From: Collybiopsis luxurians FD-317 M1
Taxonomy: Eukaryota; Basidiomycota; Agaricomycetes; Agaricales; Omphalotaceae
Length of the DNA: 64,000 nt
Direction: 5' to 3'
Assembly (NCBI GenBank): GCA_000827265.1
Contig: KN834760.1
Span: 28,626 to 92,625 of the forward strand
In this document: positions 14,230 to 42,738 of the stretch, one piece after another
Layout of the letters: each line of letters opens with the position of its first letter
Numbering within the stretch: position 1 is the first letter of the stretch
Translations under genes and position numbers: made by a program
Notes under the pieces: generated by a model
The model's input: the letters and a program-made list of their open reading frames with translations, nothing else
What the model was told of the DNA's origin: nothing
Databases searched by the model: none

Positions 14230-14417
14230 TGGTCCAAAACCCCCCCTTTTTTCTGTTTATCTACATATTCCTTCCTGACAAAATTCAATATACACTGTCC
14301 GATTCGCATATTCCGCCCTTCCAAAATTCCCCATTTGATCACCCATCCACTCATTCACGCATCCGCTGTCTCTATTCCTTCCGTTCTCTCCCGTATTCCC
14401 CAACCCCTACTTATCAC

Positions 14418-15846
<1,429 letters not shown>

Positions 15847-17810: not shown

Positions 17811-17953
17811 TTTTGAGATTATTCGCCTTGGTCAAGTTGAGAATCAATGTTATAGCAACGGGTCTGATATCCCTCTTAAATACTGTCCCGCAACAGGAAC
17901 CCAGGGTATTTTTGTACACAGCGATATCACTTCGGTTCTCAGTCCAAAGCTCC

Positions 17954-18289
17954 CGGGAGTTGTGGAGTTGCATGAGACGCTTGGTAAAGATCTATTTTGG
18001 CTTGGTGCATGTTTCAGTTTGGGCATTCCGCTTTCACCAACTCAATACTGCGGCTGATGCATTCTGGAAATGGAAACAATGGGTTTATGGCTTATGCCTG
18101 CAGAGAAATCGACTTTTCTCTCGGGAGTTGTGGAGTTTCTCGGGACGCTTGGTAAAGTTCTATTTTGGGCTTGGTGCATATTTCGGTTTGGGCATTCCGC
18201 TTTCACCAAGTCAATACTGCGGCTGATGCATTCTGGAAACGGAAACAATGGGTTTATGGCTTATGTCTGCAGAGAAATCGACTTTTTCG
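17954..18289. repeat. Two-copy tandem duplication, 168-bp unit, upstream of the O-methyltransferase
   Basis: Copies begin at CGGGAGTTGTGGAGTT (17954 and 18122) and both contain TTGGGCATTCCGCTTTCACC and ATACTGCGGCTGATGCATTC. Identity is high, suggesting a recent event. The array starts about 145 bp upstream of the O-methyltransferase start codon (17810, minus strand) and ends next to the hAT insertion. Both copies keep open frames by chance, but no protein family is recognisable. Confidence 0.9.
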
Positions 18290-18340
18290 ACTTTTTTTTT
18301 TCAAGTTGTTAGTCGAGAAAAATAAAAATATAGAACAGAG

Positions 18341-19397
18341 TAGGGATCCGCACCGTAACCGTAAAATACGGTTTACGGTTACGGCCAATACGGTACCGTA
18401 TACCGTACCGTATAACCTTTGAGGTTGAGGTTTACGGTTACAGTTTACTGTAACAAATTTACGGTTTACGGCCGTATACGGTTGTATACGGCCCGTAAAT
18501 GTTGCGTTATTAGCCTTTCTGCTTGAGCGCTTTTATACCTAAATACAAAGTATCTAGGATGCTTTACTAAGTACTACGAACTAGAGGATGAATAATATGT
18601 ACAGTAATACGGAAGTGTAAGTACCGGGAATGATGAGTAAGTAGCTGTGCACTAGGATCGGCGCATCAGTGTCGGTGACATCATTAATCTACAACAGTAA
18701 GGAAGCCTAAACTTCGTATAAAAGGCCTGGGCATTGGAGAGTTCCACCTTTGCCGAACATGGATGGGAGCCAGACACTCAAAGAACCGCCTCAGGTTAAC
18801 TCGACCAAGCTTAATGCCAAGTTTGGTATGCTTATTTTCGTTTCAGTGAATCACTACCTTATAGAGCACATTTATAGGGCACTCATCTCGTCCCTCTCGA
18901 AACAAGAATCAACGCATGATAGATGCAGTGCATGCAGAGCAAGAAACTGATGAAGATACTCAAGCTCAACAACCTAAACAGAAACGATCCAACAGAAAAA
19001 GGAAAGGTAAAGGATCGGCATCTGATCCTGAAGATATTGAGTACACAGCATCCGAGGATTCAGAGGATGACAGTGAAGCTGATCTCTCTATCTCGAATCA
19101 AGAAGTAAGCTGATATTCTCTTCTTTGGAGTGAAAACAAGGATCTCATTTGATAATTTAAGTTTGCCTTGGTAGTCGCTGCTATCTGACAATGAATCCAG
19201 GCTTAGCGGTTGCCGTTGAACGTATTTTTTCAGGAGCTTGTGATACAATCTCACTCCGCCGAGCTCATTTGAAGCCATAAAGTGACCGTAAAGTGACCGT
19301 ACCGTACCGTAGGAGATATTTTGGTGAGCTTTACGGTTACGGTTACGGTACATCCGTATACCGTAAGTGACCGTAATTTTTACGGTGCGGATCCCTA
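18341..19397. mobile_element. Internally deleted hAT-superfamily transposon with TIRs and 8-bp target duplication
   Basis: The element begins TAGGGATCCGCACCGTAA and ends with the inverse, TTACGGTGCGGATCCCTA, so the terminal inverted repeats are about 18 bp. It is flanked on both sides by the same 8 bp, GAACAGAG (18333-18340 and 19398-19405), the target duplication length of hAT elements. Both ends carry many copies of CCGTA/TACGG words as subterminal repeats (18350-18500 and 19275-19385). Inside, about 19200-19270 on the plus strand encodes AVAVERIFSGACDTISLRRA, which resembles the C-terminal dimerisation region of hAT transposases, but the catalytic part is absent. An acidic/lysine-rich ORF (18916-19111) and a TATAAAAG (about 18716) remain. 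At 1,057 bp it is non-autonomous. Confidence 0.88.
18916..19113 (+). pseudogene. Transposase remnant inside the hAT element
   Basis: A short ORF reading PKQKRSNRKRKGKGSA then an acidic stretch ASEDSEDDSEADLS ends at 19111. About 90-160 bp further on, in a different frame, comes the VERIFSGACDTISLRRA piece typical of hAT transposase C-termini. Stops and frame changes separate the two. Together they look like leftovers of an autonomous parent; no DDE catalytic region is present. Confidence 0.5.
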
Positions 19398-19794
19398 GAA
19401 CAGAGAGAGATTTGTCTTGAGTCCACTACTTCTAGACAAGCATTTTTTTTGGTATTATGGGTGATTTGACCTTACCGCAATTAGGGCCCCTTAAGGAAGG
19501 CTTATAGTTGTTCAAGCGGCCGTTGGGTTATGCCCAATAAGGTGAGTACCACATTAGACATGACTCTCAGTCAATAACTTTCAAGATGACCCGTCACCCC
19601 ATCAGATTTTACTAATGTACATGCCTGCGACTTCAGGTGGAAGTACCGGTAATGCAGTGACGCGTGCACCCAATACGGTACCTTCTTCTCTGCGATCCTT
19701 CCTTGAAGCTTCCTTTACCTTCACCTTCTGTCGACCGGCAACGTCGAGGATTTGTCATTTGAGGTGGAAGTAAGGGGGAATCTGGTCTATGATG
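19398..19794. other. Intergenic stretch
   Basis: Short unique stretch between the hAT element and the tannase fragment; no gene, RNA or repeat recognised. Confidence 0.35.
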
Positions 19795-20005
19795 GAGCGT
19801 GCATACAAACGTTGTTGTCGGAAAAGAGATAACCAAGATGTTATACTTCTTATCGCCTCAAATGCTCTACCGGAGGTCCCCAAGGCTAGAAGCGGTGTAG
19901 TTGCCAGATCACCTGCAATTAATTGGGACAATCGCATTATCTTTTTCACTTCTAGCATAATGACACCCTCTCTGGCACTCCCCCCCATATTTTATCACAT
20001 CTAAT
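19795..20005 (+). pseudogene. Fragment of tannase/feruloyl esterase exon 3
   Basis: The sequence from CATACAAACGTTGTTGTCGG (about 19801) follows the intact tannase exon 3 (8882-9125) at the DNA level: GGAAAAGAGAT.ACCAAGA, then CTC.ACCGGAGGTC..CAAGGCT, GGTGTAGT.GCC.GATC, ATTAATTGG.ACAA, and finally CCCCC.CATTTTATCAC-like sequence. Several internal deletions remove the GCSTGG context and the frame. Neither flanking exon is present. It is a dead copy of about 200 bp lying 750 bp from the stop codon of the intact P5C dehydrogenase. Confidence 0.8.
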
Positions 20006-20753
20006 CATTCCTGGATTCTGAGTACTCACATTGTTGTCGGGATTGAGGAATGATTGGGTGTGCCTATTATGTGCTATCACTGCTTGTGCTTTTGTTGCCA
20101 TAGTACTCAGTGAGTCAGTAGAACAAACAATTGCCTGGAATAATACATTTATTTCTTCGTGCTTGCCGCAACACGGTGTGGAGGTTCCATTCATGGTTTA
20201 AGCCCTGTTTAATCCTCTTATTATCTCCCATTGGATATCTCCTTCATATCTCCACAGTTCCCCTCATTCCTGAATCCTCCAACCCACGCTATTGTCGATA
20301 TTAATTCACACCTGTGTGTATCTAACTACGTTACCTTGTCCATTGAAAGTTTTCTGTTGTGTCGTCAGGTAACTTTCCACCGATGAGATTCAATACCCCC
20401 TAAAAATGAGTCTACGGTATTGTAGGATTCTATATCCTTAGCAATCCCACTCGATCTTCAGCATTCAGCGCAGGCTTACTCAACTCCCCCGCATTCTATG
20501 TAGAAGAACGAACACCGAATACTCTAGAATCCAAGTCGGGACAACAGAATTGCCAAAAACCCTCGATGTTTTAATTTTCGTTCTATTTACATGCTCCTTC
20601 GTAACAAAAATCGAAATATATTCTGTCCAATTCACATTTTCCACATTTCCAACGTCCATCCCCTTTTACCTCCTGATCCACCCACCTTTCGATTCCTCCC
20701 TTCCCTCAGGTTAGCACCGGACGCTCAACACCCAACGCCTACTCACTAACCAC
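20006..20753. other. Intergenic stretch, 3' flank of P5C dehydrogenase
   Basis: No gene is seen. From about 20560 to 20753 the sequence resembles the DNA downstream of the P5CDH pseudogene (14230-14417), showing that the duplicated segment includes the 3' flank. Confidence 0.55.
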
Positions 20754-22994
<2,241 letters not shown>

Positions 22995-23944
22995 GATTGG
23001 GAAGTGAAGGAGATGATGGTGGTAAGAGGTCAAGAAGGACGGCCGAGTTCCTTCCGAGTCTTTCTGGATTACTTCACTGTGTCATGATCCGAATCATGTC
23101 ACATCGTTCGAGCCATATGCTGAGCAGAATTTTATTGAATTAATGATTTTGAAAGATGAAAGTCAATACACAAACCATCATTGTATTCGCGTCTTTATCG
23201 ACCAAGGATCAGTGAGCGACGGGCCGCAGCGGATCTTGATCCGGAAAGTCAAAGCTGTATCTATCAAGGACGCAAGTCACAGAGAAGTAAAGCAGTGACC
23301 AGTTAGAGTTTAAGATTTCTTTCTTAAGATTCAGTACTTTGAAGGCAGTTCGAGCTGGATCGGTCAAAAGCAGTTTGACCGAGGTCTATGAGACGAGCAC
23401 GTGTCAGTTTTTGTGCCTCTTTGGCTCCTTCCATCTTCTGCCACCGTTTTGACCTCTTCATTTTGCCCTGAGGGCCATGACGAGTTGTGGCCCTCAGTTA
23501 TTGTTCCGCGACATGCTTAAATGCCGGCGCTCTTGCCAGTCTCAAATTTTCATCTCTTTCTCCTCATATCCCACATACAGTTCGATAGCCTCTCTTGAGG
23601 TTTTTCTTGCCCCACCCTTTCCACTGTCCCACTTCTTTTTTTCTTTTTTCCTTATCTTAGTCTACGGTCTCGACCATGTAGTATGTACTTCGCCCGGTGC
23701 CGGCTTAAGCATTGACCCCCTTCATCGGGTCCGTGCGAGAGAGCATTGGGCGACCAAACATAGTCTGTTTGTCCCCAATACGTTAGCACCTGCTTCCTCC
23801 GCTTTCTCTCTCTCTCCCTCGCGAGTCACCATAGATCTGTTTTTCTTTATTTTCCCAGCAATAATAGCTTCAAGTTTCATGGGTAGCAGGTTGAGAGGGG
23901 CAAAATGTCAATTGAAAATAGATTTAGAAAATCTGGTTCTAATA
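22995..23944. other. Intergenic stretch, P5C dehydrogenase promoter region
   Basis: The 5' flank of PUT2. Part of a long plus-strand ORF (23477-24328) falls here but overlaps the membrane-protein gene on the opposite strand and shows no family features. No clear TATA box or proline-responsive motif could be identified. Confidence 0.35.
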
Positions 23945-25520
23945 TCACACCATACTACTAGAAGCAACTCTCCCCCGACTCTCTATATCCTTGTCCAGGC
24001 TCTTCGGACTCACCTCTTTCTCACCGAGCTGCTCATTCCTAGAACCATGCCTCTCTCTTCTCCTCGGCTTACATTCCGCGTCCCGACTCATACTTCTCCT
24101 ACCTTGCCTTTCATTCTCTTTATCATAACCTACAATCGACTCCTTTGTTACAACTTCTTCACATATCTCTTCACATTCCCAAGAAAGCACTTTGATCAGA
24201 ACCCTAGGCTGCTTTCCCAATCGATTGATAAGTCGCTGAGAGTCGGAAATGATATCCTGAAGCAATTGACCAAGATACAGACCGGATACATTCTGAGAAG
24301 TGGTAGTGGTGTCGTCAAGTACAACTGAAATGTTCGAGTCAAGCTTCTTGAACCCTTTTACATCGACAATGGTCGGCAGTCTTGGATTCTCAGCTGGGTT
24401 TGTCGAGATAACCTCCTTATCTGCCATCCAGGAACTGGCTATCACGAATATTTTCTGTCCATTGTATACTTCCCGATCAGTCTTGAAAACAATGGCAGTG
24501 TAAAGAAAGTCACCAGACTCCCCAAGGTGATAGTAGACCTCAATATCCTGCCATTCTTCCATGGGCCCCGATCCGTACCCCACATACCGGGAAACTCGTT
24601 CCAAAAAGCGAGCGCGGGAGATGAAGAGCAACCCTCTATCCTCCTCGGTGTTATCATTTTTGGGCCAAAGCTCCCAAGTTTCAAAAGGATCGAGTTGAAC
24701 CTTGGCCTCTATTCCAGTACCGTGCTCATCCGATGCTGGGTTCCATGCCCAAATGCACAATCTGAAGATGGATAAGGCCGCTTCTAGACCAAGCCAAATG
24801 AGGGCATTGTGGGGCACCGTGGTATTCTGTACAAGTGTGAAGCATCCCAAATACCCTACCCCTGTAGCGATAGCACCCAGCATAATGACAATCTGAGCAA
24901 TCAGAAGCAACGGGGGGTCATGCGTCCCAAGTCCTGTTGCTAACACATATCGATGCGCCGAGGATACGAAGAAGGGGATAGAGCCACACGGTGACTGGGA
25001 AAGTTTTCCGGTCAGATATGATGATTGCAATATATGGAGATATGCTGAATAGAGAGATCGCAAAGGTTGTGCCGATGAGCTTGAGATTCCACACCAGGGA
25101 TTGGAACGTAACTCCCACCATTTCCATTTGTAGAGGAAAGTAAGTTTTGTACTGGTGCTGAAACTTTGCCCAAACCTGGTACTCATCCGTCCGTCTGAAT
25201 ATGCGGGATCCGACCTTCTTATTGTCTGGTAGCATTTCGATCATCGAAGCGGCGGATCCTTCCAAGTTCAGGCCCGCGTCACGAAGCAGCCTGGCGAATC
25301 TTGGCGAGATGCTAGCGACAAGAATTGCCAATGAACCCTTTACAATACCGAGACAACCGAACATGGAGAGAGGGGCAGCGGTCGCGTACAGATACCCCTC
25401 GACAAGTGCACTTCCCATATGCCTCTCGCATTGGTCCGCTCCTAGAATGGGAAGGAAGGCAGAGATGTCCTGAATGCCAGAGGCAAGTGTGGTTCCGAAC
25501 GTTTGTGTTGGATCCGACAT
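23945..25520 (-). pseudogene. Large integral membrane protein with a frameshift
   Basis: An ATG at 25520 opens MSDPTQTFGTTLASGIQDIS, followed by FLPILGADQCERHMGSAL, a Gly-rich hydrophobic segment (SMFGCLGIVKGSLAILVAS) and further membrane helices. This N-terminus belongs to a membrane-protein family seen across Basidiomycota, of unknown function. The reading moves from one frame (to about 24950) to the next (from about 24940) in the middle of a membrane segment. The second frame continues TGLGTHDPPLLLIAQIV, GLEAALSIFRLCIWAWNP and a long hydrophilic tail to the stop at 23945. No GT-AG intron of workable length bridges the change, only a 13-nt candidate, so a 1- or 2-base indel is likely: a real lesion or an assembly error. 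Apart from this, both halves are uninterrupted (about 520 residues together). Confidence 0.6.
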
Positions 25521-27303
25521 TGAGGGTTGACCAAACACTGTCAGGGAAAAGACTTATAAGTGAAGCATGCAAACCTAGCCACCTGAGGGCACGTATATTT
25601 TTGCGTTTCACTGGTGCCATGTGATTTATTTTAAAAATCAAAAGAGGCAAATATCTGCAACTAAATAAATGTTCCCATTGTGTATTTACGCTAGGTTAAT
25701 ATATAGCTATGTATTTGCAATGGAATTTTGTACTATTTGTATTATTTAAAACATTTCTGGTCTAGAGATCTCCACGGATCCTCAGGGAGCCCTCAGTAGT
25801 GCGCCCAAGGCTCGGCTTCAAATGGTGGCGCGCCGCTCATAAGTCGGATCTAGGGCCGAGCTGAGCTGCTCGGCTCTGCTTGAAGCGACTAAGTGAGTGG
25901 CTCAATACCCTTATTAGCATGATGCATAATGTTCAAATCAGCATGTCCTGGACTCTTATTCCAACGACTTGGAATATATTTACATGTTTTATAGTATGAA
26001 TTGAATCAGGATAGGCTCCAAAATATAATCCTGACTTGCCAAACTTACTCCAGGTCAAGTTCACAGGCTGTGGCTGTGCCAAATAAACAATCTTCTATGC
26101 TCATAAACCTGCCGCAAACTGATGTACTAATAGCATTGCTAAGGATTGAATTTGTGACATTCAGATATGATCTATACTTTGAGAACACTCAGAAAACTGC
26201 TTGCTTCAGCAATATTGCCGAATTCAGATTCTTGAATGGCTCTAACGACGGCGCGCCAAGCCGGTTTCTATTTTTAGCTTAGCCGAGCGGAACCAAAGCT
26301 CAAGCATGCACATGTGTTATACATCTACATAGACGCTTGGCAAAAGACAATTTGATCACAGCCATCATTCGAGGGTACTTGTTACCATCTGTTGATCTGT
26401 CTATCACCATTATTTTGATCCATGGTCTCAAACACTCCGAGGACAATATCCTGTCAAGTAGAAATACTGCCTGAATGGTTAAAGAAATTTATCACTGCGG
26501 AATCCAAAAGAATGAAATTCTAGAAATGCATCCTAGATTCATAACCAGGTTAGCCCAGGTGTCAGCTGATAAGTATTTGAAATAAAAGGGCTGATTTCAG
26601 ATTGAAATTTTGTAAAGTAGACATGAGATTGTTTCGGAACACACACTTGGGGGTGGAATTTGCAGGTTTTATAAGCAATAGGCTGCAGGCAATCACTGTC
26701 AGTCAGTTTCTCTATTCCTAGGTATCGATGCCGTATATATACGATAGATAGGTCAGAAATAGCAGGAAGAAAATTACAGCTCATAAGTCAGAGCAATGTT
26801 GGCCATCGGGAGCTGTAGGAGTCAGATCACCTCATTTGTCCTGTCATGGGCCACAGGTTACCTCAGCAACAGAGATGTCGTATTTTATCCGCCACTTGCG
26901 CCGCTGAATATAAAGATTTGACATCTTTTGGAAGTCTCACGCAGGCGCTTAACAATTTTATGACTCAGATCCTGTCAAAGTGCCCCCAGAAAATAAACTT
27001 GGAAGGATCACTACGGTATCACCCGAAGTTTAGGAGTATGAACATAGTCACCTGATATTGCATTAGTGCCATATAAAGAACAATTGGGACAGCTCTTTAC
27101 CCTCTCTCGCTCCCTCCCATCGTCATGAGCGACGGCACCATTACGCCGGTCAGTTATAACAGGTGAGATTACTAAGTTAAATTGTGAGAACTTGATGATT
27201 AGATTTTTGTCAAACCGATACCACCCTTGAACGGCCATTTAGCATCAACTCCCAGAAGTGAGTCCCGCTTTGGAGCATCGGCTGATAAAAAAACTAACAC
27301 AGG
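25521..27303. other. Intergenic stretch upstream of the NLR-like gene
   Basis: No convincing gene. From about 25640 the base composition turns visibly AT-rich. Two GC-rich patches, each holding GGCGCGCC (about 25828 and 26250), are flanked by CTCGGCTT/AAGCCG-like words in opposite orientation, which might be the eroded ends of an inserted element, but terminal repeats and a target duplication are not clear. An ATG at 27126 followed by a GT donor at about 27161 could be an upstream exon of the NLR; I prefer the ATG at 27304. Confidence 0.35.
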
Positions 27304-30300
27304 ATGTCCACCAGCTCATTCTATCAAGCTCATGATTTTGTACTCAACAGTCCAGAGTTTCATTACCATGAGAACTCTACAATAAACATTCAAAAACAGG
27401 GCTGGAGTAAGAGGTCCCGAATGATGGAAAATCTCATTCTGAGGCGGTTGATCTGTAGAGACCAGAGATTTGGATGCCATCAGAAAGTGGCTCAATGCTC
27501 CAGACACTTCCACTAACTTCAATCATGCATTTGATAAAAAGACCTTAGGCACAGGAAAATGGATTCTGCAGCATCAAACATATCTGAATTGGAAAAGGGA
27601 TGGTCAGAGACTTTGGGTACAGGGGAAAGGTATGTATTCTTACTTCTGGAATGAAGGCTATATATTTTGCTTATAAATAATTATTAGTTGGGTCTGGTAA
27701 AACTGTTTTGTCGTGAGTGAATCATGAGGGCCAGAGTAGCCAACGAAACTTAATTTGACTCCAGAGCTACTATTGTCAAAGATCTGCAGCCCGCAGTTTG
27801 CTACTTTTATTTTGATCGGCGAGATAACACAAAAATGAAGTCCACATATCGCGGACTTCTGCTCTCTCTGTTGGTGCAAGTGGCATCTAATCATAATGGC
27901 GTTCATCCTTTGTTACGAAACTTATACAAGAAGTGCAAAATGGGACTTAACCAACCTGAAACAGAGGATTTGAAACAGACCTTGATTTCTGTTATGCAAA
28001 GACCAGGTACCACTATAACTTTCATCCTAGTTGATGCTATGGAGGAGTGCAATGAGCCGCACCTTGTTACAGAATTACTTGTGACCCTGCCAAAAGCTTG
28101 TTATATTCTGGTGACAAGTCGCATTAATCCGCAGGCACCTACTGCATGGCTCAGCATAAAGCTAGACATTGAATCCGTTTGCTCCGATATTGAACTTTTT
28201 ATTCAAGACAAATTGACAAGATGGAACTTGAGCCAAAAGCTTCATGAAGAAGTATTCAGTGGCTTGGCTAATGGTGCGCAAGGACAGTGAGTATAAAGCA
28301 TAAACTTAGACATTTCTGCGGTTAATCATGAAATAGATTTCGCTGGGTTGATTGTCAACTTCAAGCTCTTCAGGCCTTAAAAATTCCAAAAGCAATTAGG
28401 AAGGCACTCACAAAGTTGCCAAAGGATCTGGATGCAATATATTTAGAAGCGTTGCCAAAACTTGATGACCCAAACTATGAAAGTGTGCATCACATCTTTA
28501 TGTGGCTTCTTTATGCCTATGAGCCATTAAGGCTAGGCCAACTGGCAGAGATTCTGGCCATAGATCTAAAGACTGAAAAGTTTGAGCTGGACCATAGGCC
28601 ATTGAAACTACAAGATGAACTTCACAGCATAGTTGATTCCACTCTGGTAATTATCGACTCAACAAAGACAGATTATGTCGTTCAATTTGCACATATATCT
28701 GTGCAAGAGTTTGTACTTTCTGTGCACAGAATAGCTGAAGCAAAGAATCTTTTTGAGATCAACAAGGATTTGGGGCATGCAATTATTGCTCAAACTTGTA
28801 TTATTTATTTACTTCATTTTGACAGTCAGAATGAAGTCTATAATTTTGAAACTTTTCCATTATCTTGGTATGCAGCAATGTATTGGACAATGCATTGTAA
28901 TGAGCTTCAATTTATAAGCCCCAAACTCCGTAAGCTGTATAAAATCCTGTTCAAGGAGAGTAGTGGTCCATATTTGAATTGGTTAAGATTGCACCAAGTA
29001 GATAGGCCTATGAAAAAGTCTTCAGCATTTGATATTCAATTAGAGCAAATCCCAAAGCCATTATATTATGTGGCATATCTTGGCTGGGTTAATTTAGCTC
29101 AGGAATTAATACAGGAGACAAGGAACAGGCAAGCCAAAAGTACACAAGATTTATCTATTGAGTCCACTCTTGACCAGATTCAACAACTAAATGCCCAAGG
29201 TGGTGTATATGGAACTGCTCTACAGGCTGCAGCTTACAGGGGTCATAAATTGATGGTTAAATTTTTGTTGAAAGCAGGAGCTGATGTCAATGCAATAGGA
29301 GGGGAGTTTGGTACTGCACTTCAGGCTGCAGTATATTGGAACCATAAGAAAGTAGTGAAATACTTGATAGAGGCAGGAGCTAATGTCAATTGTCAGGTAG
29401 GGAAATATGAAAATGCTCTGCAAGTTGCAGTCTCCCAAGGTTATAGGAGGATGGTCAAATGCCTGCTCCAGGCTGGGGCCAATGTTAATGCCCAAGGAGA
29501 CACATATGGAAACATTCTTCAAGTTGCAGCTTACTGGGGCAGGAGTAAAGTAGTTCAAGACTTAATACAAGCAGGTGCTGATGTTAATGCACAAGGAGGA
29601 GAATACGGAACTGCTCTTGTGGCAGCCACTATGAAATGCCATAATAAAGTAATGAAATACTTACTGCGAGCAGGTGCTAATGTTGTTTCAGAAGAATGGC
29701 ATTATGGAACTGCTCTGCATGCTGCCGCATATTCAGGTTATAAGCAGGGAGTGAAAATGTTGCTAGAGGCAGGTGCCGATATTAATGTTCAAGGAGGTGA
29801 ATATGGAACTGCACTTCAGGCAGCAGCTCTTCAAGGCCATAGGAAGATAGTGAAGTATTTGTTACAAGCAGGAGCAAATGTTAATTCCCAAGGAGGGAGA
29901 TATGGAAATGTCCTTCAGGCTGCAGCTGCTTGGGGTCAAAAACAAATAGTCAAATATTTAGTTCAAGCAGGTGCTGATATTAATGCCAGAGGGGGGGAAT
30001 ATGAAACTGCTCTTTTGGCTGCAGCATCTGGAGGACATAATCATGTATTCAAATGCTTGCTGCAGGCTGGTGCTGATATTAGCACTGCTCTCCAAATTTC
30101 TGCCACTAAAGGCCAAACCAAGGTAATGGAATATATATTGCAAGCAGGTGCTCATGTTGACACATATGGAAGACCATATGGAACTGCGCTTCAAGCTGCA
30201 ACTTACTCAGGTCATAAAGAGACAGTGGAATTTTTATTGCAGGCAGGTGCTGATGTTAATGCCCAAGGGGGAGAGTACGGAACTGCTCTCTTGGCTGCAG

Positions 30301-31577
30301 CTTTTGTAGGACAGAAACATATCTTAGAGTGTTTGATAGGTGCTGGAGCTGTTGTGAATGTATCCTGGGGAGGATATGGAACAGCCTTGCATGCTGCAGC
30401 CACCAAAGGTCACAATGAGATTGTGGAATGCTTACTGAAAGCGGGTGCTGATGTAAATGCCCAAGGGGGACCCTATGGAGGTGCTCTTCAAGCTGCAGCA
30501 TATCTGGGCAGCAAAGAAGTAGTGGAGTCATTACTGCAAGCTGGTGCTGATATCATTGGGCAGGAATGGCAATATGGAAGTACACTTCTAGCAGTAGTTT
30601 GTCTAGGCAAAAGGGATATAGTGATTAGCTTGCTCAATGCAGGAGCTAATGTGAATGCCCAAGAGGGAGAATATGGGACTGCACTCCAAGCTGCAGTATA
30701 CTGGAACCATGCAGAAGTAGTAGAATGCTTGCTGCAAGCAGGTGCTAATGTTGATTCTCTAGGAGGAAAATATGGAACAGCTCTTCAAATAGCAGTTTTC
30801 CAGGGCAATAGCAGCATAGTACAATGTTTGCTGCAGGCAGGAGCAAATGTTAATGCCCAAGGCGGGAGATATGGAAATGTTCTTCAGGCTGCAGCTTATT
30901 GGGGTCGGAATGAGGTAGTTAAATATTTGGTTGAAGCAGGTGCTGATGTCAATGCCCAAGGTGGAGAATATGGAACTGCTCTTTTGGCTGCTGCTTTCAA
31001 AGGACATAAAAACATAGTGACACACTTGCTACAGTCTGGTGCTAGTGTCAATGCTAAACCTGAAGAAAACAGATATGGAACTGCCCTTCAAGCTGCAGCT
31101 ACCAAAGGCCACTATGAAGTAGTGGAATGTTTGCTTCAGGCAGGTGCTGATGTCAGTACTCAAGGTGGAAACCATGGAACTGCTCTTCTAGCAGCAGCTC
31201 ATTGGGGCTACAAAAAAATAGTAGAATGTTTGGTGCAGGCAGGTGCTGATATCAACACACAGGGAGGGAAATATGGAAGTGCTATTCAGGCTGCAGCTTA
31301 TTTAGGTCATAAACAAGTGGTTGAATTCTTAGTTCAAGCAGGTGCTAATGTCAATGCACAAGGAGGAGAGTTTGGGACCGCTCTTCAGGCAGCCATTCGC
31401 TATGGTGATCAAGCATTAGTAGCATGCCTCCTACATGCAGGAGCCGATGTTCATGCCCCCGGAGGGATATATGGAACTGCCCTTTGGGCTGCAGTTCATT
31501 GGGACCATAAAGAAATTGCCAAATTATTACTTGAGGCAGGAGCTACAGAGGGAGCAGACTTTGGGCATTCAGTATAA
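27304..31577 (+). CDS. NACHT-ankyrin STAND protein (fungal NLR-like)
   Basis: Likely intracellular signal-transducing NTPase of the STAND class, the fungal counterpart of NLR receptors used in non-self recognition. Exons: 27304-27406, 27459-27629, 27688-27712, 27765-28286, 28337-31577; 1,353 residues in one frame. Residues 1-35 hold an N-terminal motif (AHDFVLNSPEFHYHENST) like those before many basidiomycete NACHT proteins. Then comes LDAIRKWLNAPDTSTN, the Walker A loop GKVGSGKT (90-97), TFILVDAMEEC (Walker B, 186-195), LVTSRINPQ, and a winged-helix region to about residue 480. From residue 560 to the end come 24 ankyrin repeats of 33 residues with consensus AQGGEYGTALQAAA..GH..VV..LLQAGADVN. 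Repeat 10 is shortened. A 25-nt exon carries the P-loop. The surroundings are AT-rich and gene-poor. The exact start is uncertain. Confidence 0.88.
29193..31560 (+). repeat. Coding array of 24 ankyrin repeats (99-bp unit)
   Basis: DNA-level tandem array within the last exon of the NLR-like gene. Units of about 99 bp share the words GGAGAATATGGAACTGCTCT, CAGGCTGCAGCT and TTGCTGCAGGCAGGTGCTGA with small changes. Some blocks are more alike than neighbours: repeats 2-5 resemble 16-19 in order, and 8-9 resemble 18-19, pointing to block duplication or unequal exchange. Repeat 10 lacks the first third of the unit. Confidence 0.93.
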
Positions 31578-34500
31578 GGCTAGTCTCTTGGTTGGATCTT
31601 GAAGGTAAAATCTAAGAGTTTGAAACCTGAAGAAGACTCAGTCTTGAAGGCTGTAAGAGTAGTAATCTTTGCTGTGTTTGGCCTTAGTACTTCCTAAAAG
31701 ATTTTGGCATAATATAAAGTTACATTAAGCAGATAAGATTGGAGATGGAATAGCCTTTTCAATCTGACACTGAAAGGCCCAATTGGCAAATAGAAACTTG
31801 TGGGAAGCTAAATTACAAATGATTATAACTTTTTTTGTGTTCCCATTTTGCTTATTTCATTTTCAATTTTGTGTCTACCTCAAATTTCATAAGTATTACC
31901 TTCTCCATGTACTTATATATATGTATAGACTAGAAAAACATTGACAGTTTAACATGGGATACTTTTCCACCTCAGGTCAGGTAATCATAAGAAACTTTCC
32001 AATCTTGAATCTGCAAAGTAGAACTTGAAGCCTTTCATGTAAATTAGACAAGAAGTAGAGACTGCCTTTGAAGTTGTCAAGGCTTTGAAATGAGCAAGGT
32101 GCCAACCAACAGAGTATGTCTTTTTCCAATCTCATGTGATGCTACCCGTGCTTGCTCTCCCATGGCACTTCTTATTACTATCCCAGCCCAGATTGGTGAT
32201 GCTTGTCCAGAATTACACTTTCTTGTCCTTAATGTTGATTACCTTTGTCCCACACTGTTCACACTCTTTTGTTGTAACCCCTGGTTGCCAGCTTGGCTTG
32301 CCTGGCTCAATGACTCTGAGCCTAGACCAAAGACATGTGAAAGACATTGTTTGATGTCACCTGAGGGGTTAAATAGAGCAACATCAGTGATTCAGGATGT
32401 GCCGCACAGCTACTCCAAACTTCCTTATCATCACCAGATTACCTGTGGAACTGGGAGAGATGGAGAATGAGGAGCTAAAGATGCACAACAACAACATGAA
32501 GGGCTGACTGCATCCATCTCCAATAAAGAGAGTATGCATCAATTGGACAGGAAGGCTAATGTCTAAATATTCAAGTCCAGTGTGACAGCAAGTCCCATCA
32601 AAAAGTCCATCTCGCTTGCCAAACTTCTTTGCCCATATATTCCACTGTAAGAAAGCTTCATTTGAATTTGACAGAACTTGTTCTGACTGACTGAACAAAC
32701 AACCTGGATTTACATATTGTACAGAAAAACCAGTGCATCAATGTGGTTTGAGTTTATGGTTGCTGATCGAAGAGCAGCACATGGACAACTTGTTCCTAAC
32801 TCAGATGTTTACACTCAAAAGGAGGATGTTATTCTACTGCTACATAAAAAAGTAATACTTGCTGCAATTGAAGAGCATCCTGAAGTCTTTTCTTTAGAAA
32901 ATTTATGATAAATTTGACTCTTTTTACACTAGAAAATTGTATTTAAAAAAAATTAAATATTCAAACAAAAGTTGTGGTAAATTTTACCAGTAAAAACTAC
33001 CAAAATAATTTTCACAAAATGATCCAAATTTCACTGGGAATATCTTATCAATCCCCCCTATTATCTCTATTTGATTTTGCTCATGATTCAAAAAAGATTA
33101 CACAACCCTAAAGTATGCCATATTTAGAAGTGACTGAACTGAGATTGTACATCATTAGGGTTGCAAATTTTTTTTTGAATCACAAGTGAAATCAAATAAA
33201 GATAACAGGGGGGATTGAGATATCCCCAGTGAAATTTGGATCATTCTGCAAAAGTAATTTCGGCAGGTTTTTACTGGTGAAATTTATCACAATTGTCTGG
33301 CATAAAAGGAATTGTATTCTTAATAAAATTTTGAAAGAAAAAAACTTCTACTTTCAACATAAAATTTTGGTAATAATTTCGGATGCACAATTTTGAATCC
33401 GCCACACTGACTGGAGGCTTTTAACAATGTGACCAGTAATTCTCAACCAAGAAAATGCAGAGGAAAATATTAAGGAATTCTGAAAGTCTGGAAAATGGTA
33501 AGGAGAGTGACATTCCAGGTGTGAAAACCCTTCCTTGATCCTTTGAGCAACAATGACTGTACTTCTGGTCATAAAATTAGATATTGAGCCAGGGTCACCT
33601 TCTGCCTGATCCTGAATATTTTTATTTTGCCTCAGACTATCCAGATACCAACAATTTAACAATAACAGTCATTAAACTCCCAATTGATCATTGTATTCAC
33701 CTGATTTCAAAGGTTCTCATTAAAACCTTTCACAATCACTTTCACTGACCTTAACAAATCTTTAGAGTTGATAAAATTGATTTTCAGGATACTGAAAGCA
33801 CCTGTACAAAATTTGAGGCTCAAACAACAGGAATTGAAAAAGTTTTTCCATACTGGCATTCTTGATTGCAATACTGGTGATGGTATATGTATGAAAATGC
33901 ATGAAAGCTGGATCGCTAATGAATTGGTGTGAGCATCTGGTGCCCACCCACTAATGGAAAATTTTCCAAGGGGTCTTCAGGGAGGGGGTGTTCCTTTGAG
34001 TTGGCTTGAATATCAAGCAACATTGGTTTGAGAGTTGTGAGGAAGAGTATTGACTTTTTGCTCATGCTGTTACAAATCTGAAATGAAATGAAGGATTCAT
34101 CCTTGTTGGGATGTTTGGTGTCATGCACTGACAAAATGCTTATGTTTTTCTCTGTATATAGTCCATGTGAATGTGACTGCCTTGTGACCTTATGGCAATC
34201 AATTTTTTTTGACAAGTGATTGTGCTTCTGAGTCTTCCAATGGCAAATGCATAGGGAAATCAGCAGTGGGGCTGTGTATATATTATTATTATTATTGTTA
34301 CTGGTTTCCTCAAGCTTTGTTTGTTGCCACCCTCATACAAGCTGGAGTTCATTCTGGCAATGTCACAAAAGCTCTTTACTCTGATCTAGAGCTGAAAGAG
34401 CAATGAGGGTGCTGTAGAGGAATACATTGCCTTCACCAGCTCTATGGGAAGTGTAACTGGAAGAAAGGTGGAGGAGGCTGTGGTTAGGGTAGCTGGTATC

Positions 34501-37500
34501 AAGGGTGTTGTATTCCAGGTTTGGCCATGCCAACTGACCCACTCAACACCCACAACATGGCATGGATCTAGTCACCAGCTTCTCTCAAGATTTTTGATGT
34601 GCTTCTTCAATTGATCTGCAGCATATTCAGATCCCAAGTGCAGAGCATTTTTCTGGCACAATTTCATGTTCTGTATCTCAAGTTTATTACATAAAATCAT
34701 TTTACTTGAGACATGGTGATCTATATACATTGGGGCCAGCAAGTATAGGATGGTAAGAGGGACAGGATTGGAAATCAGGATTGAAGGAGGGAGATACAAG
34801 GGAGATAAGGGGGAAGTTGGAGCAGTGATGTCTTCTCAATGTTTGCTCTCCATTCTCTCCAAGTCCATGTGATTACTTGAGCTTTGCATTTAGCTGTTCC
34901 TTTTTCCCAAATGGATTTATCAGGCTGAACTGTGTACACTGTGAATTACAAGTGATAGTTGCTTCAACCTAAGTTTTTTTTCTTTTATGAGTAAATCACT
35001 CAGCAACTAAGACAGTACTAAAGTTTCTACATCCAAGGTCCATCAGCGACAGTCTTCTGAGAGCCATGGCCTCTAATTCAGACATAGAGAAGCATATGCC
35101 TCGGTGTCATAAACATGCCAAAAAATCAGATTCGTGACTGCCACACAATCCATCGCAGTGGCCCTCTCTCATGAGTCATGCTATCTGACTACTTAAGTTG
35201 GTTTACACACTTTTTGATGATTCTGCCATTCTATTTGTTTGTGCATGGGATGCTGAGGTAAGATGGAATGTAAGTAGTGCAGTATTTACAGCATTATGGC
35301 TATTTAATTTCTCAGTGTGGAGTTAGTAGAGGGAAGGTTTCCTCCTCCAGTAGTGGCAAGGAGGGCTGGTGCAGACTGGGGTGCACTTGATGGTGGTGGT
35401 ACCAGATCAGGTTGCCCCTGATGTCTACTGTTCTTCTATTTATTGGATTAGTTAATATTAAGTATTCTAGTGATGAAATGAAGCACACCTGAGTCCTGAC
35501 TAGATTCAATGTCTGAATTGAAACCTCTTTCTAGATCTCCCTTTGAATTAACATATCTGGCCAAATTTGTATGAGTGGTGTTCTCCACAAAAATTCTTTG
35601 TGTCGTCTATTAAAAATTTTGTCATCATCCTCCTTTTGTCAAAGTTTTGTTGTAAGTAGCATACCCCTTCTGCACTCCTCTAATATGGATAGAGCTTAGT
35701 GGGATGGAGATAACATTTTATTTTTCTCAAATCGTATCCCTGGCATTGAGCCTAATGAAGGATTTGGGAAATCACAGTCACCCAAAGGTGTCAGTCAATG
35801 TGAAAATTTTCATGCACATAGCAAGGAGCATGTTGATGTATACTGCAGAATCAAAAGGCTAAGTTAGCTGAACACTGATATCTGATTATTCCACACACAT
35901 TTGCTTAGTGGGAAATAGACTTTGGTAAATTAAGCCTTGGCAAATCAAATGACAAAATCACATAACCTCAACTTACAGGTCAGAAAAATATAGTTCTAAG
36001 GCATAGCTACATACTTCATGTTTGGTTAGTATAAAGCTGAGGAGTGAGCATTTTGACAGCTCACAGTGATAAAACAAGCAAGGGAAGCAACACTGCCCAA
36101 TATAAGAGAACAATAGTAATTCTAGTTGAAAACTATGATACCTAGTTATCATTCTGCAATAATGTTCAGTAGCCTTCTAATCCATATGCAATTTGTTACC
36201 CACCCTGTTTGTACTGTATAGAGGATCAGCACATTGATCATTGAGTCAGTACTGATAAGATGAATGACATTAGGGAAACACAGATGCAAAGCAACAAAAT
36301 ACTGTTTGACTCCACCTCTGATTTTATGGAGAAAAAAGCACAAAGATACAGCAATGTAGAGGTCTCCCACAACTAACATGCCCAGCCCAAGATACAGCAG
36401 CCACTAACATTCAGATTAGTGCAGCTCAGGAAAGGTTGAGTTTCCATACTGCAAGTTCAGCAAACTTCTCAACGGTATTCAAGGCAAACCTATCATCATA
36501 CAATGATCAATGAAATTGACCAAAAAAAAAAAAAAAAAATTGCTGTATGAACTGACAAGTGAATGCCAAATGCTGCAACATAAGCATAAGCATTATTAAT
36601 GATTTCTAGCTCTGAGTATGGTAGCTTGACAAACTGAGACCAATAACTTTTTCAACTTGGTGAATCCACAATTCCAGCAGAATACAAGTTGCTTGAATTC
36701 AGTTACACTTACCAAATATTACAAATATCCAACCAATCTGTGTTCTGCAGTAAGCTATGATTGAATATGTTGAAATTATATGATACCCTCACCAGTGAAT
36801 ATACTAGTAAATGCTTTTTAGTGCTCACTATGGAAATCTCAGTTTTCCAGACTTTTTCCAACCAAAATTCAGTCCTACAGATCCACAAACACCAGGTAAA
36901 AAAACTAAAACATCTTTAGCTAACATTTCCAAATTTCAAATAGAACTTACATTTGAACTATGGTGTCGCTTGTTGGCTGCCAGATCAAATTAAATGAAAT
37001 AACTCAAATGATAGATATATGTAGGAGCTTACCATCACAAGTATTCCTGCCTTGAAAAAACTTCATTGGTACAGGATATGTGAACTGCAATATCTACTCA
37101 CATCAATACTCCTGAACTTGCACATTAATATTATTTTTCTGCTCCATTGATCAAACTCACCAAGCTATCTGGTTCAAAACCTGAACATTACTGAAGTTTG
37201 TGACCATATACCTGGTGGCCTTTCAGTAATGGAGGCTACATGTAAGAAGCCTAATTATACCAGTATACTGCATGAGCTACAAAGACGACATGAAGAGTAT
37301 CAATGCTCCTTAGGAAGAATTGAAAACCATTTAACACCAAGAAACATTAGCCATACCAAAGTAATATCACCTGCAAATGAACTTCTTCAGCTTTTACAAT
37401 TAATACGACACATGCAACTTGCCATTTATTTTAAGACAGCCTTGTCCTTGCTAGATTTCTGGAGAAATATGAAAGATTGCAAACATGTTATGCCATATAA

Positions 37501-39384
37501 CCTAAGAGAATCTCAGCATAATAATCCCAAGAACAAACCTAAAAATGACTAAACATGGTAGTAGCAAGGCCGCCAATAAGAACTGTGCCCAGTGTATCAT
37601 AGAAACTTGAAACTGACATTGTAGATGGTGGGGTATAAACAACAGGTTATAGATTGTTAGTTCTTATATGGCAAACTGTGAGAATTAATATGATGTAAAG
37701 AACAAATTCAAATCCTGCTTAAGTAGGATGTTCACAAACTCAAAATAATCACAGAATTTCAAGGACCTTAATCACGTAGATCCATCATGTATTGTTAGCA
37801 TGCATCACCAAAAAGGGCACAAACAAGACCTCAGGATTGGGAGACAAATAGTACTCCGAAACTTAAAAACATCTCTCAAAACAAAGCAGGGTAACCTCTG
37901 GTCATAGTAAGGAGTCTTCAATCCATTGTTAAAATGTCAGCCATAATACTTGTTAAGACTTGAAGATCCTCTCTGCCACTCAGAATTATTCTGCCTTTTG
38001 TGTAACAAAGCACTAGCTCCTTGAGCGGAGCTAAAAAATGAATGAATTGGCCTGTCGAGTCACTGTCATTTGTTTATACTCTCAGTATGGACTTACATAA
38101 AAAGTTCATACTCACTACACAATATGATACCCCAAAATGGTGCATTTGATCAAATCTAGTGATCCCCAAATGTGCATCATGGATGACTTATTGCTTGGTG
38201 ATTATGAATACCAGATAGGAAACTTGCCCAGTGTCTCATAAGATCAGAAAATGAAGGCAGGTGTTAAAAAGACAAACAGAGATCTAGATTCAACCTCTGG
38301 GTGTCCACAGCAGACATGCCTAGATCATATAGAGATAAAACCCACAAATTTGCTAGCTCAAATTGAGCTGTTATTCTGTAATAAAGACATTTGGCCACAA
38401 AGAATTGCACAGGAAAGATGGGAAACTAGCAAGTCGTAGTGGGTAATCAGCGGCCAGGTAATTAAGTAGGGCACAGATCAACTGAAATAGTGCCAGTGGA
38501 GAACAAAAGCGAATGAACACCATTAGCTCAATGTTAGCTTTGGCAGCAGCTGACACTCTCAGCCTCCCCAACATTGCAATAGCTGCCTACAGCCAGGAGC
38601 GAGCCTGGACAGTACCGGTGCATGCCCGGTGGAGCTCGGGGGGTGCCCGCTGACTCAGTGAATTTGAATCCTTCTTCTGGATTTGGTCTCACCGACAGTG
38701 TGCTCCAAATACTGAGTACAAACTGCTGTCCAATGGCGGCACCTGTATGTCCATTACCGTAGAGATTAATGGTATGTTCTATCTGTAGGTAAGAAACAGA
38801 AGATTTCCACAGTTTTGCAATAGTACTTAGTTTGATGAGTCGAGAAAGGTCAAGAATTTTGGAATCTCCAAACTAAAATATAAGGACAGCCTGTTCTGAC
38901 ACTGCCATCAATCTGATGCCCTTGATGGGTGGTTCAGGATTGCAATTGACAATGGTAGGACACGCCAAGTGCACCACATTAAACAGCTTTCTACAACTCA
39001 ACAATGTCGGAGGGCATCGGATATTCGACAAGGGAAATTCTGCTTTTGGGCAATGTACATGAAGCCCCTGTGCAAGTGAGTGATTGGGATAGACTCAAGA
39101 CAATGATCACAACTAGATAGATATTACGCAACAGGGTCCCAGGAGGAAAGGAAAATTACATGGTACAATAGATATTCAAAAAATATTTGGGTTTCTGGTC
39201 GCTACAAAGTCCATGCTGAAGGCACCACGAAAGGGAAGAGGCAAACGCTAGGCCGAGTCTCGACAGCTTGAAATTTTCAAAAAATTGATCATGTTGCCAA
39301 ATAACTATGCATACAAAACTCCACATAAATGCCCATGGGCTGCCATTAACTCTGGATGCTAATTCAAGCAACAGGAAGACTCCC
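31578..39384. other. AT-rich, gene-poor stretch of about 7.8 kb
   Basis: No gene could be recognised. Short ORFs (32090-32470, 32717-32908, 37229-37552 plus; 33354-33662, 33916-34215 minus) lack known motifs and convincing splice partners. A fold-back palindrome lies at 32969-33297. An A-run of about 18 occurs near 36522-36539, which might be a retroposon tail, but no retroelement body was identified. Confidence 0.4.
32969..33297. repeat. Fold-back palindrome (MITE-like), arms about 140 bp
   Basis: The left arm (about 32969-33111) and right arm (about 33153-33297) are reverse complements along nearly their whole length. For example, ACCAGTAAAAAC at 32987 pairs with GTTTTTACTGGT at about 33267, and GATCCAAATTTCACTGGG at 33021 pairs with CCCAGTGAAATTTGGATC at about 33225. 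The spacer is about 40 bp. I estimate roughly 85% identity by eye. No ORF is present. The form fits a fold-back or MITE-type element; the superfamily and target duplication could not be fixed. Confidence 0.85.
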
Positions 39385-41261
39385 AGACAAAGTGCGAATT
39401 CTTGGGTGAGTGAAGGTCCAGCAGCCCAGGCCAAGCCATCCTCTGGAGTAGGCAACATCCATATAGACGTACATGTTATAGCCATCTCCTTCTTAAGAAC
39501 AGCATTTCCTGTGGGTCTTCGAGTATCGGGTATCGCTCAATCAGGTTTGCTGAAAGGTCATTGTCCCAGTTCTCTTCCAAGCACCTAGTGAAGGGGTGGT
39601 TTCCATGAGCAGTCTGTATAGCTGTAAATGGTCCCGTAAATTATCCTACCGTTTCCATTCGCAAAGACAACGAGGATAGTCTTTATATGTCATGAGAGTG
39701 CAAGTGACAAGTTCCATGAGATAAGCACTCACGGGCGGCCAAGTCTTCTACTTTAACAATGTCAAATATGCATTGGAAATCAATTTGTAAAGACGTTAAA
39801 CTAGGAATAATGCAATTTAGCCAATGATATTTTTGAATAAAATCATTGCCTCTGACAAAAATATATCAGCTGTAGTATACTATTCAGAAAGTTCTTGGAA
39901 GTATGCACTGAAGAGGAGAGTATCCTGATTCTGGATAAGTTGTAGCCATCAAGACTACTCATGCTTTACTGTCTTTTAATGCCCAGTCAATCATCGACAT
40001 AAATTTTGACATGTTCTTCTGCCCAACAGCCTGTATATGATTAATCATAAGAGGAAATATGAGAGAGCTTGCTCAAAAAAATACCTCAAGCATCTCTGTA
40101 CTTACGCAGGCATCAAATGCCTTTTCAAAATTGGGAGGAAGACAGCGGTAATCCAAGAGATGAACTTTGACTCGATCATCGACACCAGCAAGCCGGATAC
40201 TTTCTCTTGTACCAACATATTGCTCGGTAGATACGGTTATGGTATCAACTGTACAGCCAATCCTTGCAGCCTATTGTCAAATTCAACCCTTGACCTATGT
40301 GTGAGCAAGTTAAAACCTTACTGCAATAGCTAGAGCGCCCCGGCCTGAGCCGATCTCAAGTAGCCAATCCCCGGCTTTGACATTAGCTTGAGTCAGAATA
40401 TATGCAATCATCCAGGCTTGAGCTGTTTCTAGATCTTTAGGTGCTCTGAATCCCAGAGTATCCCCATTTACCCCTGATTCCGCATCATCCCAGAGAGGGC
40501 ATGAATATTTCATCTCAGTGCTCAGAAAAGCCTGGAAAATAGCATATCAAACATCCGAAGGCCAGGGTAATATGACAAGCCTCAAACCTTGTAAAACTCA
40601 TTAGAAAGGTTATAGCCGTCGGCCTAATGCATTAAGATGTTGTGTGCTCTTGAGATAATCAGTCGAAAAAGAGAATTGCTCACATTTTCAACGGACTTGC
40701 TGGGAGAGTGGTATAGAAAGTAAGTTTGTAACTTATGACTGAGCCAGCTTGCATAGAAAAACAGGCTAGAAAGGCCCCCTAAGTTATCTCGATTGTCAAT
40801 GTAGAGCTGTATGTTGAATCAGAGGCGGATCGTGGAAGAAGATAGCAAAATCATCTCACATTGAGCAACTGATGAAGATCAGGTGTTTCAATTTCGCCGG
40901 CCATCCAAGCTTCTGAAACTGAGCAAACGAGTGAGAACACCTCACAGTAAAAGCAGGAACTGATGAGTACATCCGATATCATAAGCCAAAAAAATCCGAA
41001 TCCAGAAAGTATTGTCATGAACGATGAGGGAGGCACTAGAAGCACTTTTTTGCTGAGTATTACCTAAAGTGACAGACCCTATGTCCGCATCCTGCACGAT
41101 AATCGATCCCTGAGTGATACCGTGCTGCAACTTAGCAAGAACCCAGTATCTACCTAGGCCACGGTCAATAAATTGGTGTCGTCGTGGCACTCAGCTAACT
41201 TACAAAAACTGACGCTTCGAGTCCAGAAGAAGGAAAATAATCGTAGTTTCAGAGTCGTCAT
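39385..41261 (-). pseudogene. Decayed cyclopropane-fatty-acid-synthase-like methyltransferase
   Basis: The 5' part reads well: exons 41261-41204, 41153-40971, 40918-40860, 40806-40684, 40623-40588, 40531-40322, 40270-40085 and 40030-39959, all with GT-AG introns of 50-60 nt. They give VHDNTFWIRIFLAYDIGF, SEAWMAGEIETPDLHQLL, ADGYNLSNEFYKAFLSTEMK, the SAM motif LLEIGSGRGALAIAAA, TVDTITVSTEQ and GQKNMSKFMSMIDWALKDS, the order seen in fungal CFA-synthase family proteins. The frame then meets TGA (39959-39961) at 308 codons. Family sequence continues in frame just past the stop (VVLMATTYPESGYSPLQ). Pieces of the C-terminus then follow in shifted frames: IQKYHWLNCIIPS (about 39830), ERYPILEDPQEM (about 39525) and YVYMDVAYSRGWLG (about 39450). 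A normal enzyme would be about 450 residues, so this copy is broken. Confidence 0.85.
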
Positions 41262-42738
41262 GGGGGTTGATGTTATTTGCGGGTTATTCTGCAACTACCG
41301 GTGATAGTAAAAATCGGAATTCTCAGTGGATCTTGGATGTCGAGTCAAGATTGGTTGTAAATCGGTTGAAATTTTTACAATGAGGATAGTGCCTAAAATG
41401 AAGCCTGATGCATGAGCTGTGACGGCAAATTGGGAATGCCATTTTGTTACCGTTGGATTTGGCTCCAATACGATGCTACATTGTATTATCTCAGTGAGAT
41501 AGAACCTTGTTCGGACATACACACATGTAGAATAGATTTGAAATAAAACATGCAACATGGCAATGCTGAACAGCATAAGGGTGTCGGTGTTCTCTTGTCA
41601 AGATGCCCAGGCTCGACTGCCGTTGTTCTTAATCTTCCTCGGAAGTGCAAGGAGTTCCTTACTGGATCGGTTGTTCTGTAATGTAAAGGGATCGAATTCT
41701 TTCTAGTTGCTGTTATCTCTGCTCTGTGAGGTGTCCGAGTCTTGATTTATCACTGTTTCTTTTTCCCTTCCGATAGCTCTCGCTCAGAAAATTTCCGAAT
41801 CGTCCCGCTTACAGAACGGTGACCCACAGTACAATAGCCCTACTGTTGGGATCGAGTGAACTTTACTGTGAGTCGATCGGACCCCATCCGAAATGATCGC
41901 AGAGTAACCGTTTTTTTCTGTCATTAACGAGAAATACATGACCCGGCTGAACTTTAAAATTACAGTGTTGAATCCGCCGACTTTCCCCTCCTTGTATGAT
42001 ATCTAACCTTAGCCAGTGCAGCCATTCGCTACTACGACCGTACGTCACTGCTTGAAGATTTTGTACTCAATTAAGCGTTAATGCGAAGGCTTTTACCTAC
42101 AAATAAATGCATTTATTATGATAGTCGGGCTCATTTTCGCTTCTCTGTGTTCCCGCTGTCGGATAACGTGGATTAAAGAAAACATTTTGGGGATCACATC
42201 GCTCATATCGCTCGAGTTGTCCCTCGGTCAATCTTTCCTTCAAAAAGTACATGCAAGAATAATGATTAAACTCAAAAGAACTGCGACAGTTATTCGATGA
42301 TCTGAGATGACACGGAATTAGGGCTTTAGCATCCCGAATCACAACCGGTAGAGAATGGGCAATGCCCGAACCACAGAGACTTTGTTCTCGCTACTACAAA
42401 CAGCAGTACAGCCTTACAGGCCATGATCGAGGATGGAAATGTGCTGCAATTGAAGATGATTCGAAGTATAAAGGACCTCAATTCAAATCCTGTTTCCTCG
42501 CGAAATGTGGTAGGTCCACGGCGGATCAAAACAGATTGCCTTTGTATCACATACACTCTTCTTTGTCTCTTACCGTCACCACCTCTCTGTTTTCGCGATT
42601 TCGCTCACTTTTGTGAATATAACGTGTATCACCCAAGTACCTGAGCCTGTAAATGCTCTCTGGTGTGTTTTCACCATATCACCTTAATGATAATTCGAAT
42701 ATAGGAAGTCAACGGCCGCGGGTTCTACTTGTCCGATT
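41262..42738. other. Intergenic stretch between divergent genes
   Basis: Lies between the 5' ends of the CFA-synthase-like pseudogene (-) and the alpha/beta hydrolase (+). Short ORFs (42097-42342 minus, 42362-42616 plus) lack recognisable features. No repeat or RNA seen. Confidence 0.4.

Follow-up and report, generated by a model that had tools for sequence, protein, structure and literature searches.

Fungal NLRs with repeat sensors are mostly discussed as fast-diversifying non-self receptors. A gene with 24 ankyrin units in Collybiopsis luxurians FD-317 M1 raises the question of whether every such sensor belongs to that regime. It lies on the plus strand of the window, the 64,000-nt stretch of DNA analysed here (contig KN834760.1, designated C12, positions 28626–92625 of a 64.26-Mb genome; one genome of one strain). 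Pfam matches to NPHP3_N (E 8.4e-31) and Ank_2 (E 1.9e-159), a P-loop (GKVGSGKT) in the spliced protein and detection of the single units confirmed the initial annotation in one respect, that this is a real NACHT-ankyrin NLR-like (STAND) gene with a 24-unit repeat sensor. The same annotation had taken the units for unusually alike and the gene for a possible, quickly diversifying recognition receptor. The results point elsewhere: diversification of the sensor apparently came early and was followed by a freeze.

The ankyrin array (29199–31568, plus strand) was delimited by unit detection, Pfam and the helix pairs of an AlphaFold2 model. Its closest paralog was C48 (73% identity in the winged-helix region), and the two arrays were colinear over 22 unit pairs. 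At the DNA level the most similar C48 units followed the same order for 21 of the 24 units; units 8, 9 and 20 deviated. Compared with shuffled unit orders, the pair reached z 15.1 and 15.4 for protein and 16.7 for DNA; simulated controls of 13–39 units in which order was retained gave z 8.0–24.5, the simulated copies having ended more alike (71–85%) than some real ones. The sole unit-sized indel between the arrays was a segment of 177 nt (59 aa, aa 815–873; 29931–30107, plus strand) made of parts of units 8–10 and lacking a counterpart in C48, and the other three gaps were of 1–2 aa each. Block comparison gave units 2–5 (29298–29693, plus strand) and units 16–19 (30663–31064, plus strand), the second copy of an old block duplication, as the best 4-unit block pair, with a score reached by none of 300 shuffles. 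C48 contained the corresponding block (units 2–5 with 14–17, p 0.003). The duplication being common to both genes, the array was built before they separated. The two genes were dispersed in the genome, and the flanks of this gene (window 7500–27000 and 31600–51500) were not syntenic with the C48 locus except for one dispersed-repeat copy, so that an allelic copy in a diploid assembly was rejected.

Siblings of similar or smaller divergence had mostly lost their order. Among 55 pairs of 11 paralogs (one pair undefined), this gene and C48 were the sole pair with an order z above 3; C25c (5 usable units) and C25e (2) had low power in the test because of runs of N. At similar winged-helix identity, z was -1.1 for C25a and C25f (74%) and 2.3 (p 0.02) for C3a and C3c (75%). 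The tree joined this gene to C48 (support 100/99), C25a to C25f (97/92) and the C3 group together (100/99). A second set used, for 20 of 30 loci, the units that directly follow the winged helix; among its 67 pairs with at least 50% identity, this gene and C48 again came first (z 6.9, 14 units each). One other pair, L013 and L015 (78%), was partly colinear at z 4.7; L032 and L036 (84% identity, 13 and 11 units) gave z 0.5, and pairs at 91–92% identity gave z 1.6–2.5, but with just 6–10 units. For 44 earlier homologs, the highest order z was 3.7 (P0021, 9 units), followed by 2.2 (P0029) and 2.1 (P0032), with 7–11 units. An array-directed search, which scored the 7998 candidates sharing most words, newly listed 118 proteins, and none of these was clearly colinear (best z 3.9, nearly equalled by one of 60 shuffles). 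Since no array from another species was clearly colinear, the conservation applies to one paralog pair and not across species.

Substitutions between this gene and C48 were counted by the Nei-Gojobori method (proportion of synonymous differences, pS, 0.47–0.60). The ratio of nonsynonymous to synonymous divergence (dN/dS) was 0.11 in NACHT, 0.14 in the winged helix plus linker and 0.21 in the array, at amino acid identities of 83%, 71% and 72%, respectively. Repeats that diverge between species like the NACHT part had been named as evidence against fast diversification, and between these paralogs this was found in part: dN of the array (0.160) exceeded that of NACHT (0.087) but was close to that of the region next to the array (0.166). 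At all but one of the 33 positions of the unit (32), the proportion of nonsynonymous differences (pN) was lower than pS. The array diverges about as fast as the winged-helix part and is under purifying selection. With an order z of about 15 against C48 and a dN/dS of 0.21, the rapid repeat turnover expected of this gene was not observed, nor was the concerted evolution or reshuffling of units that is a trait of high-internal-conservation (HIC) repeats.

Positions within the 33-residue unit were numbered as in designed ankyrins, the absolute numbering being assumed. Surface positions 13 and 14 ranked with the most variable ones between units: residues differed there in 83% of unit pairs that did not match, but 32 of 42 matching cases were identical between this gene and C48. 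To express retention, the differences in matching pairs were divided by those in non-matching pairs and the quotient was subtracted from 1 (21 pairs, unit 8 being left out as chimeric). Retention was 0.71 at positions 13 and 14, 0.66 at positions 9 and 16, which are presumably less exposed in the ankyrin fold, 0.42 at hairpin positions 1–3, 0.36 for outer-helix and 0.15 for buried residues; fourfold third positions, which are synonymous and nearly randomised, gave 0.21 (22 pairs). At outer-helix positions 17, 18, 21, 22 and 25, 54 of 105 cases were identical (Fisher p 0.009 against positions 13 and 14). The randomised interface residues of designed ankyrins given in the available text of PMC3602593 (46, 48, 56, 57, 78, 79, 81 and 89) are spaced like positions 3, 5, 13, 14 and 2, 3, 5, 13 of the 33-residue unit.

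Within single arrays, the ratio of pN at positions 3, 13 and 14 to array pS was 1.86 in C25a, 1.66 in C25d, 1.43 in C76a and 1.27 in C25f, all with bootstrap intervals above 1; in C3a (1.14) and C3c (1.12) the intervals included 1. Thus, four of six siblings had a nonsynonymous excess at these positions. The ratio was 0.93 in this gene and 0.95 in C48, where pS was near saturation (0.61 here), and 0.42–0.59 at other positions. The sibling excess agrees with the positively selected ankyrin positions on the concave surface that the accessible part of PMC4986451 describes in Podospora.

The units were also less alike than had been supposed. Mean identity was 53% over the 31-aa core and 64% for DNA over 93 nt, the latter bearing out the claim that DNA words are shared among the units. 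The accompanying claim, of repeats with much higher similarity than is usual for ankyrin repeats, was not confirmed: six of six unbroken siblings measured besides C48 were more uniform (61–66% amino acid and 72–76% DNA identity), and 118 homologous arrays had a median unit identity of 59%, with 38% of them below 53%, a comparison biased because these arrays were retrieved as the best hits with this gene as query. The HIC criterion is more than 85% repeat identity over at least 100 aa (PMC4986451), and about 10% of ankyrin NLR repeats are reported at that level (Dyrka et al. 2014, PMC4986451, available part). The best 4-unit run reached 60% here and 0.87 in C3a, and 23 of the 118 homologous arrays reached 0.85. 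High repeat identity as a special feature of this array was therefore rejected, as was recent local tandem duplication, because neighbouring units (63% DNA identity) were no more alike than distant ones.

Some other arrays were irregular. The relative C12b (L047, G000 C12:485500–493500) had 38 detected ankyrin units, two in-frame stops and 39–48% unit identity per piece, and looks like a decaying copy. Uniform sibling arrays on C25 of G000 (L045, L078 and L079) contained runs of N, so that very long open frames in this genome can be partly gaps. This was the case for the frame at C25:28192 (L078, listed with 4386 aa); another very long frame (9289 aa) lay at C13:693190. No assembly gap fell in the array of this gene.

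The reading we favour, with a probability of roughly 0.58, is that of a NACHT-ankyrin NLR whose 24-unit sensor carries a fixed surface kept by purifying selection. The siblings look like diversifying receptors, and this gene and C48 look like a pair in which diversification has ended and a unit-specific surface is maintained. Retained order together with unit-specific surface residues suggests a target that is fixed and not ever-changing. That two dispersed paralogs kept the code makes a polymorphic allorecognition partner less likely as the ligand than a conserved protein, be it self, guarded or microbial. More tentatively, and with a probability that we would put at about one in three, a single NLR family in one genome may hold both sensor modes, namely scrambling and diversifying arrays and a pair with a conserved 22-unit code at positions 13 and 14.

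Several points weigh against a fixed, ligand-contacting surface. The basis is one genome and two paralogs, and the rates are rough because pS is near 0.5. At position 29, pN (0.26) exceeded pS (0.12), from few sites. Position 3, another diversifying position, had a retention of just 0.38 (22 pairs), so the putative surface is not wholly frozen. Retention could also come from packing between neighbouring units instead of from ligand contact.

Carried further, such packing would mean that folding alone maintains the unit-specific residues, with units co-adapted to their neighbours, a situation seen in many ancient repeat proteins, and no fixed ligand required. Positions 9 and 16, taken to be less exposed, were indeed retained on a par with 13 and 14. 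Vertical conservation after horizontal diversification is moreover described as universal for protein repeats in the available text of PMC5120217. Yet positions 13 and 14 accept many residues across units (83% of pairs differ), they match positions that are randomised for binding in designed ankyrins (PMC3602593, available text; alignment with 6mol), and the buried positions as a group were retained at just 0.15. We consider folding alone an unlikely explanation.

Less probable again is the reading of the initial annotation, in which the gene would be an allorecognition receptor like HET-D and HET-E that evolves fast and differs in repeat number between alleles. The gene class is the same, and Podospora ankyrin NLRs with repeat-number polymorphism and positively selected positions have been described (PMC4986451, accessible part). 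Also in its favour, sibling arrays had lost their order, four of six had an excess of nonsynonymous changes at positions 3, 13 and 14, and a 59-aa indel distinguishes this gene from C48. Against it, the units were not homogenised (53% identity; best 4-unit run 0.60 versus 0.85), order and unit identity were shared with C48, and dN/dS was 0.21. What stands of that proposal is the class of the gene, a STAND protein whose sensor is made of repeats, and its family shows both array turnover and surface diversification; rapid repeat turnover in this gene itself was not supported. A declining gene that escaped homogenisation by lying apart from the C25 cluster, its order frozen for lack of recombination partners, is highly improbable: its dispersal from C48 with flanks not syntenic apart from one dispersed-repeat copy, a unit 10 without hairpin, low model confidence there and at unit 15, and the in-frame stops of C12b would fit, but the open frame, conserved introns and dN/dS of 0.11–0.21 indicate constraint, and retention at positions 13 and 14 was far above that of synonymous sites, whereas absent exchange would explain order and not retention.

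The allorecognition NLRs HET-D and HET-E (HNWD) share with this gene the STAND architecture with a repeat sensor, but their WD40 repeats are more than 80% identical and under concerted evolution (PMC12222747, available text), whereas here the ankyrin units were 53% identical and unshuffled and no HET domain was present. Other fungal NACHT-ANK NLRs likewise have NACHT followed by ankyrin repeats in a large family in one genome, and the short unannotated N-terminus reported for basidiomycetes was found here too; the present array differed in not being of the HIC type and in sharing its order with a paralog (PMC4986451, accessible part). Protein repeats are described as evolving biphasically, in that units first diversify horizontally and each is then conserved vertically (Persi, Wolf and Koonin 2016, PMC5120217, available text). 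This resembles what was seen, except that a single NLR family would hold both phases, with most siblings in the first and this pair in the second. Plant NLRs are split into highly variable and conserved ones (PMC8226289, available text), and the idea that just a subset of the NLR repertoire evolves fast is common to both; those data concern leucine-rich repeats within plant species, and ours ankyrin repeats of paralogs in one fungal genome. No description of a contrast between conserved and scrambling arrays inside one fungal NLR family was found in full-text searches of open-licence papers.

If both sensor modes do coexist in the family, it would provide a fungal counterpart of the conserved and highly variable plant NLRs, and the conserved code would point to a constant ligand common to two dispersed receptors. 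As this gene shows, sequence-similar ankyrin repeats are by themselves no marker of the fast-diversifying regime, and unit order with unit-specific surface residues can tell conserved from scrambling sensors within a single genome. Comparing unit order with winged-helix divergence would be a simple screen for receptors likely to have constant, more easily identified ligands.

The gene (27125–31577, plus strand) had six exons and encoded 1362 aa, with five GT-AG introns of 152, 52, 58, 52 and 50 nt; C48 (L039) encoded 1310 aa, with corresponding introns of 158, 59, 51, 53 and 50 nt. All on the plus strand, exon 1 (MSDGTITPVSYN plus 2 nt, 27125–27162) had a counterpart in C48, exon 2 (27315–27406) held a conserved short N-terminal motif, SSFYQAHDFVLNSPEFHYHENSTINIQKQGW, exon 3 spanned 27459–27629, the 25-nt exon 4 (27688–27712) held the P-loop, exon 5 spanned 27765–28286, and exon 6 with the stop codon (28337–31577; open frame 28416–31577) encoded the winged helix, linker and ankyrin array. 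An exact genome-wide search with the exon 1 pattern matched only one other place, C48, and first exons resembling it were present at 4 more of 9 fetched paralog loci. The start formerly placed at 27304 was therefore rejected: that ATG falls inside intron 1 of the paralog-supported model, and translation starts at the ATG at 27125.

NPHP3_N (Pfam E 8.7e-31) covered aa 74–228, or 27548–28122 of the plus strand including introns; PF05729 NACHT scored 18.2, under its curated cut-off of 26.7. Between NACHT and the repeats, a winged-helix-like region (28491–28721, plus strand) matched GPIID_WHD weakly, below the curated cut-off (E 0.0098; 16.7 bits versus 27). Both sets of coordinates were hand-converted, those of NACHT from the gene model. 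Unit spacing was 33 aa throughout except for 26 between units 9 and 10 and 35 between units 19 and 20, and the array sequence matched both human-type ankyrin (4rlv, 8e-77) and, at 3.8e-73, designed ankyrin proteins (6mol). The exon 6 product was modelled with AlphaFold2 from 15 sequences (mean predicted local distance difference test score, pLDDT, 76.4; predicted template modelling score 0.50), and the model had helix pairs along the whole array, mostly at pLDDT 80–97. It was broken with low confidence at residues 560–585 (unit 10, without hairpin) and 715–750 (unit 15), and the winged-helix part was poorly modelled.

No Pfam effector domain preceded NACHT in the corrected model; NLR N-termini without annotated effector domain are common in basidiomycetes (PMC9815663, available text). 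The motif exon was conserved across the clade with the consensus SAFNQAHDFVLN.PEF, a looser form (F..A..F.i....F) started more distant NLRs in the same genome, Rhodocollybia and Lentinula, and codon comparison of aa 1–45 with C48 gave a dN/dS of 0.16. Searching the genome with the motif gave 10 matches, nine upstream of NLR genes and one at the end of contig C24, and a pattern search gave 33 matches versus 14 in a reversed control. An effector or partner carrying the motif was not found in the genome by a single-sequence search of limited sensitivity. The short N-termini of agaric NLRs form a motif meta-family without known effector partners in the available text of PMC9815663. Its Agaricomycete families NLR05, 08, 22, 29 and 44, likened here by description, likewise have a short N-terminus with a conserved motif close to the very end, and for them too that text names no effector partner, as none was found here.

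A HeLo domain search of the genome found two genes. One, L080 (G000 C33:79290–79859; open reading frame 1219–2100, minus strand), encoded a HeLo-domain protein of 293 aa, for which Pfam gave HeLo alone. Its C-terminal 60 residues contained two similar pseudo-repeats that by eye resembled a HET-s-type double motif, and a second copy of this C-terminal motif was not found in the genome.

In the favoured reading, the ankyrin solenoid would bind its ligand through positions 13, 14 and their neighbours. Binding may then free the NACHT module, which would oligomerise and gather the short N-terminal motifs, and the gathered motifs could recruit an executor, possibly by way of an amyloid-like motif of the sort suggested for agaric NLRs.

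The closest named homologs were from Rhodocollybia, Lentinula and Collybiopsis, all Omphalotaceae; no near-identical protein was found in the homolog search, the best match having 40% identity. The winged-helix region had at least 124 exon-level matches in the genome, with clusters on C13, C20, C25, C60, C69 and C70, and by this measure the predicted NLR repertoire is large. Dispersed repeat copies lay on both sides of the gene, at window 25795–26305 and ~34075–35170, with copies elsewhere reaching 92% and 89% identity, respectively. Downstream, imperfect inverted repeats at 32972–33292 (arms of 64, 54 and 26 nt, 83–92% complementary) matched dispersed copies on both strands elsewhere and likely represent a fold-back element or one resembling miniature inverted-repeat transposable elements. 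Further along the window, exons of a cullin-like gene (Pfam PF00888) at 45324–46951 were 80–83% identical in DNA to two adjacent stretches at C11:237425–241099. Exons of a tannase/feruloyl esterase (8989–9522), an aldehyde dehydrogenase (15405–15911) and a GMC oxidoreductase (61819–62367) were also present.

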